Source of the DNA: Alcanivoracaceae bacterium
GTDB lineage: Bacteria; Pseudomonadota; Gammaproteobacteria; Xanthomonadales; Marinicellaceae
Length of the DNA stretch: 64,000 bases
Assembly: GCA_016744455.1 (NCBI GenBank)
Contig: JADGEI010000018.1
Span: forward strand, 1 to 64,000
Direction: 5' to 3'
In this document: piece after piece, positions 37,825 through 48,892 of the stretch
How positions within the stretch are numbered: the stretch's first letter is position 1
How the letters are laid out: each line of letters begins with the position of its first letter
Translations under genes and position numbers: made by a program
The notes under the pieces: model-generated
The model's database searches: none
Told to the model about the DNA's origin: nothing
Seen by the model: the letters and a program-made list of their open reading frames with translations, nothing else

Positions 37825-37838
37825 TTGACCAACATCAA
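37825..37838 (+). promoter_or_regulatory. Dnr/FNR-type box upstream of norE
   Basis: TTGAC-CAAC-ATCAA matches TTGAY-N4-RTCAA. Its centre (37831.5) is 32 bases from the middle of TACAAT at 37861-37866, the spacing of class II FNR-type promoters. The predicted start at about 37873 lies directly before the norE ATG. Confidence 0.75.
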
Positions 37839-37873
37839 TTCAATTCTACACCATTGTCTTTACAATTTCTCGC

Positions 37874-38440
37874 ATGAGTGAAAAGACAAAATTGTTGCCA
37901 GGTGATTTTGCAATCTGGATTTTTATTTTTGCGGAGTTAACGGTATTTGCCATTTATTTCGTTATTTATGCCGTTGTTCGAATGCAAAATGTAGAAATGT
38001 TTAATCATTTCCAACTCACGTTAAATCGTGAAACTGGGGCCATCAACACTATCTTATTGATAACTGGCAGTTATTTTGTTGTTAAGTCTGTAGACGTTAT
38101 TAAACAGAATAAAATCAAAGAGTGCTATAAATTTTTATATTGGGCTTTGGTTTGTGGCTGTGTATTTGTGGTGATAAAGTCGTATGAATTTTACATGAAG
38201 TTTTCAGTAGGTATTGGCCTTGACACCAATACCTTTTATATGTTTTATTTGTCCTTAACACTGTTTCACTACTTTCATGTTATTCTTGGTATGGCTATTT
38301 TGTTAGCTATTGCAATTAAAGCTCAACGAGGTAGTTATGATTCCAATAATTATACTGGCGTTGAATCTGGTGCTAGCTATTGGCATATGGTTGACTTGGT
38401 TTGGATAATCCTTTTTCCGCTTATTTATATTATACGATGA
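37874..38440 (+). CDS. norE: NorE-type cytochrome c oxidase subunit III-like protein
   Basis: 188-residue membrane protein with five helices, a homologue of COX3 lacking its first helices, as in NorE. It shows the FHYFHVILGMAILLA helix and the SYWHMVDLVWIILFPLIYII ending. It is thought to help assemble or stabilise nitric oxide reductase. It is followed by norF with an ATGA overlap. There is no ribosome site in front of ATG 37874, and the predicted transcript starts at that codon. Confidence 0.85.
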   Translation: MSEKTKLLPGDFAIWIFIFAELTVFAIYFVIYAVVRMQNVEMFNHFQLTLNRETGAINTILLITGSYFVVKSVDVIKQNKIKECYKFLYWALVCGCVFVVIKSYEFYMKFSVGIGLDTNTFYMFYLSLTLFHYFHVILGMAILLAIAIKAQRGSYDSNNYTGVESGASYWHMVDLVWIILFPLIYIIR

Positions 38441-38697
38441 AAAAAACAGATAAAACAACACAGGTTTGGTTAACCCTAATCCTATTAACTTTAAGCACCT
38501 ACACCTTGGGTTATTACAATTATAGTGGAAGTTTAGTCGTGCTCTTATTGTTGCTAACAGCTGTAATTAAAGGTGTTTTGATTATACGGGAGTTCATGGA
38601 ACTCAAAGGTGTCTCTCTACTTTGGAAGGTCATGATGTATGGTTGGTTGGTGATTATTTGTTTGGCAATTATTATTGCTTATACCATGTCCCAATAA
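38437..38697 (+). CDS. norF: NorF-type cytochrome c oxidase subunit IV-like protein
   Basis: 86 residues from ATG 38437, overlapping the norE stop as ATGA. The longer in-frame start is unlikely. Three helices, with the COX4-pro family sequence QVWLTLILLTLSTYTLG and a final VIICLAIIIAYTMS helix. A small accessory subunit for nitric oxide reductase assembly, inferred from position and size. Confidence 0.8.
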   Translation: MKKTDKTTQVWLTLILLTLSTYTLGYYNYSGSLVVLLLLLTAVIKGVLIIREFMELKGVSLLWKVMMYGWLVIICLAIIIAYTMSQ

Positions 38698-38735
38698 TTG
38701 TAACGTGTAGTTGACTAATAAAGTGTTTTTATTAT

Positions 38736-46531: not shown

Positions 46532-46573
46532 TTCAATTAAAATGCTCTCATTTACTAACCCAAGGCAAATAAC

Positions 46574-48751
46574 ATGAAAAAAACAGGAATCGTATTGGCA
46601 TTATGCGTGATATTCACTCAAAATATAATGGCAGATGATGACTCGAAGGTAGAACTGGACAGTACTACTGTTGTAGCAGTTGCCAATAAGCAAGCAAGGC
46701 CTATTGTTGATATAGTTGGTTCTGTTTCAATTGTTAATGCTGGTGATATATCAGCAACGAGTAGTGAGAATATTGCTGATGTGTTACGTTATCAAAGTAA
46801 TATCGCTATCGAAGATGGAGGGACTCGATTTGGTACATCGGGCATTAATATACGTGGTATTGGTGATAATCGTGTGGCCATTGAAGTAGATGGTGTTAAA
46901 AATGCTAAACAATTCTCTATAGGTTCATATTCCAATGCTCAAGCACAATTTCCTGATACTGATTTAATCAAAAGTATAGAGGTTCTCAATGGGCCTGCTT
47001 CAACATTATATGGTAGTGATGCAATAGGTGGTATGGTTTCAATAACCACTTGGAATCCAGATGATTTAACCAGGTTAAATGATGGGAATCGTTACAGTAA
47101 AATACGCCTTGGATACGATGGTAAAACCCATGGCAGGATTGTTTCAGGATTATCAGCATGGGATAATGAAAACTATGGCGGTATAATTGGCTTTACTCAA
47201 CGTGATGGCAAGGGTTTGATACCTCATGATTCATTTCATGATAAACGAGATTTTTCTGATTGGGATCAACAAACACTTTATTCAAAGTTTGTGGTTAATA
47301 CATCAGGGACTAATACCTTAAAACTTGGTTTTTCTGGATCTCAAAAATACATTGAAACACAAATAAATTCGTTTATTGGACAAGAGCGTTTTTTTCGCAC
47401 TACTGAAATCTTAGCAGATGATAATTATGATAATTATAAATTTGTTATTGATTATGATTTTAGCATTAACAATAATCTAGTAGATGATGGAATTGTAAGG
47501 GCGTATTTTGCCAACACAAAAGTAAACCAAGAAACCAATGAAAAGAGGAGTTCTCGCAGAGGTACACCTTTATTACAATTTCGCCGTTTTCAATACGAAC
47601 AACAAAACTCGGGTTTAGAATTGAATTTAAACAAGCGTTTAAGCACAAGTTCTGCCATACATAATATTATCTACGGTGTTGAATTTACTAAATCCGATAT
47701 AGAAGAGTCACGCAATGGATTGGAGACAAACTTAAACACAGGTATTGGTGTCCCTAGTATTATTGGCGAAGTGTTTCCACGACGTGATTTTCCTAATTCT
47801 AGCATTAATGAAATAGGCATATTTATACTCGATGAAATTAGCTTGGAAAATACAAGCTGGACCCTAGTTCCAGCTATTCGATTTGATTATTATGATATGT
47901 CTCCATCTCGTGATAGCTTATTTGATGTAAATGGCACCAATGTAGAAATAACTTCAATCAACGAATCTGACATTTCTCCAAAACTAGGGGTCTTGTATAA
48001 AATCAATGACAACTCAAATATGTTTGCTCAATACGTACGAGGTTTTCGAGCACCGCCATTTGATGATGTTAATATAGGATTGTTTAATCCAATATTCAGA
48101 GTACGCGCTATTGCAAACCCAGATTTAAAGTCAGAAACTTCAAATGGCTTTGAAATTGGTTACCGTTATTTTGGGAAAACAAATAATGTAAATTTATCCT
48201 TATTTCACACGGACTATAATGATTTTATAGAATCCAAAACAGTTGTTGGTGTTGATCCTGATACTGGCTTTGTCATATTTCAATCACGTAATATTTCTGA
48301 GGCAAATATTTATGGTATTGAAGCTTCACATAGTTGGCAAATCAATAATAATTTTTTAAGTTATACAACATTTGCTTGGACCAAAGGCAATAATAAAATT
48401 ACAAACCAACCTTTAAACTCCATTTCTCCTGCAAAGATGGTTAACAATATCACATGGACTTCAGATAATAGATTATGGAATGTTAATCTTTATTCTACCT
48501 TGGTTAAATCAAAAACAAGAGTTGATGAAACTGATGATTTCTTTAAACCTGCTGGTTTTGGGGTTTTTGATTTATTTGTTAATTATAAACTAGGGGATAA
48601 TCAGAACATTCAATTAGGCGTCTTTAATATTGGCAATAAAAAATACTGGGATTGGCAACAAGTGCGTAATTTCATCGTAAATGAGCCAATAATTGATGCC
48701 CTATCAAAGCCTTCACGGTCAGTTTCATTTTCATATACTTATACATTATAG
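46574..48751 (+). CDS. TonB-dependent outer-membrane receptor, haem/hemoglobin type
   Basis: 725 residues: signal peptide (MKKTGIVLALCVIFTQNIMA), plug domain (about 40-155, with IEVLNGPASTLYGSDAIGG), then a 22-strand-type barrel ending in an aromatic strand (SFSYTYTL). The FRAP (GFRAPPFDD) and NPDL (ANPDLKSE) boxes are the signatures of haem/hemoglobin receptors. Its promoter carries Dnr and Fur-like sites, so haem or iron uptake during denitrification is likely. A copper receptor, as in OprC/NosA, is an alternative. Confidence 0.85.
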   Translation: MKKTGIVLALCVIFTQNIMADDDSKVELDSTTVVAVANKQARPIVDIVGSVSIVNAGDISATSSENIADVLRYQSNIAIEDGGTRFGTSGINIRGIGDNRVAIEVDGVKNAKQFSIGSYSNAQAQFPDTDLIKSIEVLNGPASTLYGSDAIGGMVSITTWNPDDLTRLNDGNRYSKIRLGYDGKTHGRIVSGLSAWDNENYGGIIGFTQRDGKGLIPHDSFHDKRDFSDWDQQTLYSKFVVNTSGTNTLKLGFSGSQKYIETQINSFIGQERFFRTTEILADDNYDNYKFVIDYDFSINNNLVDDGIVRAYFANTKVNQETNEKRSSRRGTPLLQFRRFQYEQQNSGLELNLNKRLSTSSAIHNIIYGVEFTKSDIEESRNGLETNLNTGIGVPSIIGEVFPRRDFPNSSINEIGIFILDEISLENTSWTLVPAIRFDYYDMSPSRDSLFDVNGTNVEITSINESDISPKLGVLYKINDNSNMFAQYVRGFRAPPFDDVNIGLFNPIFRVRAIANPDLKSETSNGFEIGYRYFGKTNNVNLSLFHTDYNDFIESKTVVGVDPDTGFVIFQSRNISEANIYGIEASHSWQINNNFLSYTTFAWTKGNNKITNQPLNSISPAKMVNNITWTSDNRLWNVNLYSTLVKSKTRVDETDDFFKPAGFGVFDLFVNYKLGDNQNIQLGVFNIGNKKYWDWQQVRNFIVNEPIIDALSKPSRSVSFSYTYTL

Positions 48752-48787
48752 AACTGCATTAATTCGAGGAAAAATTTAATTTTATAG

Positions 48788-48801
48788 TTGATATATGTCA
48801 A
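48788..48801 (+). promoter_or_regulatory. Dnr/FNR-type box upstream of nirS
   Basis: TTGAT-ATAT-GTCAA, a full match. TAAAAT (48824-48829) lies at the expected -10 spacing, giving a start near 48836, 57 bases before nirS. Confidence 0.85.
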
Positions 48802-48892
48802 TTACAAAAAATAACGATATTCCTAAAATACAAACAATATGAGGTGTATTGCACCTTGATGATTGCGTAATAATATAATTTGGAGAAATCAA

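Follow-up and report, generated by a model that had tools for sequence, protein, structure and literature searches.

A 64,000-nucleotide stretch at the start of contig JADGEI010000018.1 (assembly GCA_016744455.1), from a member of the Marinicellaceae, was analysed over its full length and is called the window. It appears to hold a compact Dnr-type regulon, in which four FNR-type boxes with correctly spaced -10-like hexamers stand upstream of norE, norC, the gene of a TonB-dependent receptor and nirS (cytochrome cd1 nitrite reductase). The TonB receptor is the most unusual part of this regulon and not merely one more target. No genes for the synthesis of heme d1, the cofactor of NirS, were recognised in the window's genome, and among 105 distinct NirS genomes a TonB receptor gene lies within 5 kb of nirS in 75 out of 79 scorable genomes that lack the tested pathway markers versus 1 out of 25 that carry the pathway. 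The joint reading proposed here, that a Dnr-like protein reads the promoters and that the receptor imports heme d1 for NirS, is judged on the sequences to have an even chance of being correct; the import step by itself is placed at about one half. The features that carry the argument are as follows.

37825..37866, + strand: box TTGACCAACATCAA with TACAAT at +36, putative norE promoter, predicted start near 37873 (pattern scan, shuffles)
40434..40475, + strand: box TTGATATAAGTCAA with TAACAT at +36, putative norC promoter (pattern scan, shuffles; family conservation 8/8)
46502..46543, + strand: box TTGACCCATATCAA with TAAAAT at +36, putative TonB receptor promoter (pattern scan, shuffles; family conservation 19/20)
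46574..48751, + strand: TonB-dependent receptor of the TIGR01785 heme-receptor family with a PhuR-like fold, proposed heme d1 importer (family score, predicted fold, tree)
48788..48829, + strand: box TTGATATATGTCAA with TAAAAT at +36, putative nirS promoter (pattern scan, shuffles; family conservation 21/21)
48893..51013, + strand: nirS, cytochrome cd1 nitrite reductase whose N-terminus carries an additional cytochrome c domain (domain search, comparison with solved NirS)
51375..52082, - strand: Dnr-like Crp/Fnr regulator with PETFSR and no Fe-S cysteine motif (domain search, structure-set comparison, alignment)

NirS, heme d1 and the linked receptor

Residues 163-716 of the window NirS form a normal cd1 nitrite reductase (1.3e-256 to solved NirS) with its heme c motif, and an additional cytochrome c domain (49019-49282) is fused N-terminally. 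An architecture with an extra cytochrome c is called unique to the Chloroflexi in the available text of PMC8756737; the fusion described here occurs in many Lysobacterales, in Idiomarina genomes and in others. The histidines of the d1 and active site are retained: equivalents of His182, His327 and His369 (names as in the available part of PMC8756737) are present in 65/65, 64/65 and 65/65 of the NirS from genomes lacking heme d1 genes, the window included, and in 24/24, 21/24 and 24/24 of those from genomes with the pathway. NirS proteins of the former kind occupy at least four places in the NirS tree (a large clade, Thiothrix, locus L101 together with L145, and genome G083), as read from a topology whose support values were unexamined. 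According to the accessible part of PMC6697039, Marinicella are considered strict aerobes that lack nitrate reduction, and a marine denitrifying biofilm yielded assembled transcripts of Marinicella nirS and norBCQD.

Heme d1 is described as the cofactor of cd1 nitrite reductase only, with nirD, L, G, H, F, J and N as its genes (PMC7242693, available text), and the same set, nirDLGHFJN, is given in the available text of PMC3694632. The genome that contains the window (G000) is 99.96% complete. A search of this genome with PF02239 for NirF and NirN returned NirS as the sole match, no protein in it passed the NirJ cut-off (the best, a generic radical S-adenosylmethionine (SAM) protein, reached 51.9 bits versus 515.45), and no PF17805 match was found that would indicate a siroheme decarboxylase. 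As far as recognisable genes go, the window NirS is therefore not accompanied by nirF, nirN, nirJ or nirDLGH. Among this genome and 100 relatives, NirS is encoded in 57, and a further strong PF02239 protein, together with a NirJ over the cut-off, is present in only two of these (G038 and G048); NirS lacks the extra domain in both. PF17805 was tested in 75 genomes and found in 22, every one of which also has NirJ over the cut-off (22/22); G048 has NirJ and no PF17805 match. An assembly artefact as the cause of the missing pathway is ruled out by the completeness of G000 and by seven named isolates that lack the markers as well: Idiomarina loihiensis (complete chromosome), Pseudidiomarina donghaiensis, two Thiothrix, Marinicella litoralis (G012), M. 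marina (G018) and M. sediminis (G021).

A second set consisted of 64 non-duplicate named loci, 50 of which were tested for NirF/NirN and NirJ (all except L108, L123, L125, L130, L131, L134, L135, L139, L143, L144, L146, L147, L148 and L150). Two pairs with identical places and scores (G102 and G093, G106 and G069) were treated as repeats and each counted once; G123, with a 65-residue PF02239 piece, was scored as lacking the pathway, and G129 and G141 were scored as bearing it on partial evidence. When both sets are combined, 80 out of 105 NirS genomes lack the tested markers, and these comprise 75 with a receptor within 5 kb of nirS, four without and one that could not be scored. Among the relatives the receptor is linked in 52 out of 55 pathway-less genomes and in neither of the two that bear the pathway. 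Among the 50 named loci it is linked in 25 out of 26 scorable pathway-less cases (the 27th, G127, is a 3-kb contig) versus 1 out of 23 with at least one marker, or 1 out of 15 when only those that reach 5 kb on both sides are counted (Fisher 2.5e-12). The same holds for non-fused NirS within these 50 loci (6/7 scorable pathway-less versus 1/22 pathway-bearing). The cytochrome fusion as the key correlate is ruled out, since L120, the only case of a fused NirS together with the d1 pathway, has no TonB gene found; L101, L145, L104 and L117 have no fusion, no pathway and a TonB gene. The orientation of the TonB gene and its side relative to nirS vary. Receptors of the relatives were sought mainly by likeness to the window receptor, and the fetched stretches of G038 and G048 were also scanned with a receptor hidden Markov model (the G048 scan reached only 1.3 kb past nirS); G041, G096 and L106 were scored positive from partial genes at contig ends.

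Two further observations concern these neighbourhoods. A porin of the Alginate_exp family (PF13372; e.g., L051:2591-3814) recurs close to nir or nor genes in many pathway-less loci, G007 and G132 among them; the loci scored as pathway-bearing gave no match to it, and neither did the window. On the plasmid pTfr153 of Thiothrix fructosivorans (L117), whose genome lacks d1 markers, nirS is accompanied by nor genes and by the gene of a TonB receptor from another branch.

The window receptor scores 344.3 bits against TIGR01785 (cut-off 316.85), which places it in the heme-receptor family. PhuR is its nearest solved relative by sequence (3.6e-71) and the nearest match of its predicted fold (template modelling scores 0.87 and 0.89; mean predicted local distance difference test 86.5). 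A copper receptor was considered and rejected (TIGR01778, 75.4 bits versus a cut-off of 472.45). FRAP-like and NPDL motifs are strongly conserved in the receptors. The plug His of PhuR, which together with the His of its FRAP-NPNL loop we take to be an axial heme ligand, aligns to Gln123 of the window receptor, in which the stretch from FRAP to NPDL is also free of His. Loss of a heme His as the trait that sets the linked receptors apart is ruled out, as the PhuR plug His is absent in linked and unlinked receptors alike. A phylogenetic analysis separates the 53 linked receptors (window included) from 27 of 29 unlinked ones with support 1.0, and the remaining two belong to G059 and G090; for 16 of these 27, the source genome encodes no NirS. 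A first tree with 20 unlinked receptors had given the same support of 1.0, after which nine more and two fragments were added. Within the FRAP-NPDL loop, T504, N505 and Y510 occur in 20/20 of the unlinked receptors of that first tree; in the linked receptors position 505 is mostly L or I and position 506 mostly P, with N505 and P506 in the window receptor. By eye, no heme ATP-binding cassette (ABC) importer or heme oxygenase stands among the window's listed open reading frames (ORFs), a family search for them not having been made. The genome encodes a ferrochelatase, so that import of heme b is not obviously needed. Judged by the absence of recognised genes, the receptor gene thus adjoins that of an enzyme that depends on a cofactor not produced by the cell.

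Promoters of the regulon

The preliminary description of this DNA had placed four TTGAYN4RTCAA boxes at 37825, 40434, 46502 and 48788, each with a -10-like hexamer that begins exactly 36 bases past the box start (TACAAT at 37861, TAACAT at 40470, TAAAAT at 46538 and TAAAAT at 48824), and all four were recovered at precisely these positions. The class II FNR/Dnr geometry that it read from them, a palindromic box with a hexamer spaced for a centre at -41.5, is borne out by the scan for box plus hexamer and by conservation within the family. The window contains five exact boxes versus 0.70 expected (maximum of three in 100 shuffles), and box and TANNNT at +36 occur jointly four times versus a mean of 0.05 (maximum of two in 300 dinucleotide shuffles of the window). 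The fifth exact box, at 13513, was rejected as a member of the regulon: it lies inside the ORF at 12138-14597 and has no TANNNT at +36. A general promoter scan, with 55 versus 65.8 in shuffles, did no better than the shuffles. In the whole genome there are 84 boxes, and the joint arrangement occurs at 16 places (both strands counted) versus two for a backwards control pattern. One of the 16 precedes ccoN, which adjoins the gene of an FNR with the cysteine motif; several of the others, judged by eye, face no listed gene. On contig C40 of the same genome, near 10.6 kb (L012, L013), a symmetric box has a hexamer at +36 on each strand; its neighbours, named by eye, are roadblock/LC7, PAS and PhnD-like genes.

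To score conservation of the arrangement, 20 family loci and the window were scanned for FNR-type boxes whose TANNNT hexamer stands at +35, +36 or +37; if more than one box fell inside 200 bases, preference went to one with a hexamer so placed. The window genome and the named Marinicella belong to the same family (Marinicellaceae, Lysobacterales). The arrangement is present upstream of norC in all eight loci that hold norC, upstream of the TonB gene in 19 out of 20 loci that hold it (three of these boxes have one mismatch) and upstream of nirS in 21/21. The only locus in which it is missing before the TonB gene, L070, is on a contig that begins 83 bases ahead of its TonB match. A ccoN control set of 28 loci, from which two partial ones were dropped, has the arrangement in 26/26. 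The boxes precede all four of the targets that had been named at the outset, norE, norC, the TonB receptor and nirS; for norE, however, no family footprint is available, since norE was found in 0/20 family loci, which extend at most 12.5 kb upstream of nirS, and its promoter accordingly lacks support from family conservation. Only seven bases separate the norE hexamer (37861) from the ATG (37874), and the norE message is therefore predicted to be almost leaderless. For norC, the TonB receptor and nirS the predicted starts are near 40482, 46550 and 48836.

The half-sites of the boxes differ between the two groups of genes. One TTGAC and one TTGAT half are combined in 40 out of 45 exact norC, tonB and nirS boxes versus 4 out of 25 exact ccoN boxes (Fisher 1.4e-9, a value that ignores relatedness and serves as a guide only). 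These mixed half-sites are the best evidence, if indirect, and would favour different readers for ccoN and the denitrification genes.

The genes of the nor region are listed below; the names norE, norF, norC, norB and norD are those we presume to apply.

37874..38440, + strand: norE-like, oxidase subunit III family (subunit III models, scores below their cut-offs)
38438..38697, + strand: norF-like small membrane protein, COX4_pro (domain search)
40512..40946, + strand: norC, ATG preceded by GAGG (ORF list, synteny)
40952..42346, + strand: norB (ORF list, synteny)
42446..43255, + strand: norQ, AAA_5 and CbbQ_C (domain search)
43257..43619, + strand: DUF4870 protein of the nor cluster (domain search, synteny)
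43626..44609, + strand: NapH/CcoG-like 4Fe-4S membrane protein of the nor cluster (domain search, synteny)
44609..46438, + strand: norD, VWA (domain search)

A flavin-monooxygenase-like gene (38736-40316, - strand) sits on the opposite strand between norEF and norCB.

Proposed mechanism and alternative explanations

Under the proposed mechanism, low oxygen and nitric oxide (NO) would activate Dnr, which would switch on the four class II promoters together and with them norEF, norCBQD, the TonB receptor and nirS. Apo-NirS would be made and exported and its c hemes attached, with heme d1 not made by the cell. The co-induced receptor would then take up heme d1 released by other denitrifiers and carry it across the outer membrane into the periplasm, where NirS would bind it without NirF or NirN. 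Insertion of d1 is described as periplasmic, and NirN as not essential in Pseudomonas aeruginosa, in the accessible part of PMC3694632. What the DNA itself provides is the boxes and their spacing and conservation, the intact d1 ligands, the lack of recognisable d1 genes, the linkage and the PhuR-like family and fold; the NO signal, the Dnr reader, the heme d1 cargo and the loading without a chaperone are what we infer from them. In wider terms, the chances are balanced that heme d1 is a shared good with which several lineages that keep NirS but no d1 pathway fill this enzyme by way of a nirS-linked TonB receptor, one that the present organism would switch on along with nitrite and NO respiration. 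Such a receptor would be the first dedicated heme d1 importer known to us, recruited more than once from different receptor subfamilies. A literature search in which most subscription papers and all bioRxiv preprints fell outside the coverage gave no earlier report of heme d1 uptake among the matches listed.

The identity of the reader is one point at which alternative explanations have to be weighed. About 0.4 kb separates the regulator gene from the end of nirS, and the regulator has, as the preliminary description had it, the E..SR residues (PETFSR) and no FNR-type cysteine cluster (Cys only at 17, 35, 130 and 179). The further claim that it fits Dnr rather than FNR is supported for the protein, which among solved structures is nearest to DNR of P. 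aeruginosa (3dkw, 4.6e-30) and far from the best FNR entry (9qlt, 1.9e-6); for the reading of the boxes, FNR and NIT-Crp are candidates as well. Four Crp-type helix-turn-helix proteins are encoded in the genome: the Dnr-like protein, FNR, one with a CRP-like helix and one NIT-Crp. FNR combines the cysteine motif with an E..SR helix and its gene adjoins the ccoN promoter, whose geometry is identical; in NIT-Crp a NIT domain that senses nitrate or nitrite stands at the N-terminus, and the helix, KPETFSR, resembles that of Dnr. (The NIT-Crp gene is at L019:1438-3048, - strand, on contig C35 of the same genome near 25-27 kb, beside a moeA-like gene named by eye.) The published DNR consensus TTGATnnnnATCAA coincides with the FNR consensus in the available text of PMC1274295, so box and spacing cannot name the reader. 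An assignment of Dnr from the motif alone is ruled out on this ground and by the presence of FNR and NIT-Crp in the genome. It is unlikely, yet a serious contender, that FNR (responding to oxygen) or NIT-Crp (responding to nitrate or nitrite) reads the boxes in place of Dnr and that the regulon is not NO-specific; the shared geometry, the two helices and the coincident consensus speak for it, while the position of dnr next to nirS, the dnr relatives in 17 out of 20 family loci and a half-site pattern unlike that of the ccoN boxes speak against it. The three family loci without a dnr relative are L058 (a 19.6-kb locus) and the short contigs L053 and L070; in L054 (80-754) the dnr relative has an in-frame stop. 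Dnr is plausibly the most likely reader of the boxes, although not the sole candidate.

The cargo of the receptor and the state of NirS allow other explanations as well. Membership in a heme/hemoglobin receptor family over its cut-off, PhuR as the nearest relative by solved structure and by fold, and the strongly conserved FRAP-like and NPDL motifs would all suit a receptor that imports ordinary heme or iron and joined the regulon because NirS and NOR are rich in heme, with d1 made by unrecognised enzymes. This is rather improbable: it leaves unexplained that linkage of the receptor tracks the absence of the d1 pathway (75/79 versus 1/25), ferrochelatase is present, no heme ABC importer or heme oxygenase was seen by eye among the window ORFs (no family search having been made), and Gln123 replaces the PhuR plug His with no His between FRAP and NPDL, although unlinked paralogs also lack the plug His. 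Since NirS keeps its d1 ligands in the absence of known d1 genes, d1 must come from somewhere, and a non-homologous route of synthesis, with the receptor serving another Dnr-linked need such as copper or a siderophore, would account for this; the generic radical SAM protein with its weak match to NirJ could be counted in its favour. We regard it as distinctly improbable, given that NirF/NirN, NirJ and, where tested, NirDLGH are absent together, that all genomes with PF17805 have NirJ as well and that no replacement turned up, no systematic search having been made. A NirS that works without heme d1 or is a relic, with the linkage inherited as a block, would fit the placement of most pathway-less NirS in one clade, often with an inherited neighbourhood. 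It is very improbable in view of the near-complete retention of the three histidines in these NirS, of the variable side and orientation of the TonB gene, of receptors from other branches beside nirS in Thiothrix and L087, and of the transcripts of Marinicella nirS and nor genes assembled from a denitrifying biofilm (PMC6697039, available text).

Several observations weigh against import of heme d1 by the nirS-linked receptor under Dnr control. Receptor families are poor guides to cargo, and in the available text of PMC3694632 P. aeruginosa is described as needing nirF to form d1. The linkage tally (Fisher 2e-18) includes no correction for shared ancestry, and in 8 of the 23 named loci with the pathway the sequence falls short of 5 kb on at least one side. 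No receptor was found near nirS in the pathway-less G007, G132, G059 and G090; G007 belongs to the window's own genus and has no similar receptor anywhere in its genome at E 1e-40, and in G059 and G090 a receptor is encoded elsewhere in the genome, on the nirS-linked side of the receptor tree. Conversely, G149 has both the d1 pathway and a nirS-linked receptor. The nirS-adjacent receptors do not form one subfamily, those of Thiothrix, L087, L106 and L118 falling in other branches, which suggests repeated recruitment. Outside the family, an exact box lies upstream of the receptor in only 7 out of 24 loci (background 28 out of 1114 tiles; L087, with no scored tonB start, was entered as a miss).

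Implications and comparison with known systems

The nirS gene is widely used as a marker for denitrifiers. If many carriers of nirS cannot make heme d1, nitrite reduction could not be predicted from the gene alone and would hinge on d1 leaking from neighbouring cells. Denitrification would then be tied to the exchange of a cofactor, as would the nitrous oxide made by these nir-nor organisms. Such an exchange would explain the presence of nirS in supposed strict aerobes such as Marinicella (PMC6697039, available text), and the analysis names a receptor candidate for heme d1, a cofactor described as serving one enzyme only (PMC7242693, available text).

The regulon is like the DNR regulon of Pseudomonas (nir, nor, nos) in its DNR-like regulator and in the FNR-type boxes before nirS and the nor genes. 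It is unlike it in the addition of a TonB receptor, in the lack of d1 genes in the window and of recognised ones in the genome, in boxes that mostly have one TTGAC half and in the almost leaderless norE promoter. The receptor shares with the heme receptors PhuR, HemR and ShuA a TIGR01785 score over the cut-off, a PhuR-like fold and the FRAP-like and NPDL motifs; it differs in being under a Dnr-type promoter beside nirS, in having no linked heme ABC importer by eye and, with respect to PhuR, in the replacement of the residue aligned with the plug His. A parallel in operation is PqqU (model NF041535), which we take to be a receptor for TonB-dependent scavenging of pyrroloquinoline quinone (PQQ): here, too, a periplasmic respiratory enzyme would obtain through a TonB receptor a cofactor that the cell does not make. 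In contrast to PqqU, the window receptor, which is of another receptor family, would carry heme d1 and be controlled by a Dnr-type promoter. The cytochrome c-fused NirS of Chloroflexi (PMC8756737, available text) likewise carries an extra cytochrome c N-terminal to the usual c and d1 domains, whereas the fusion reported here occurs in Lysobacterales, Idiomarina and others, and the likeness noted is one of architecture. Taken alone, the regulon belongs to a known type, and the import of d1, if it takes place, resembles TonB-dependent PQQ scavenging in its operation.

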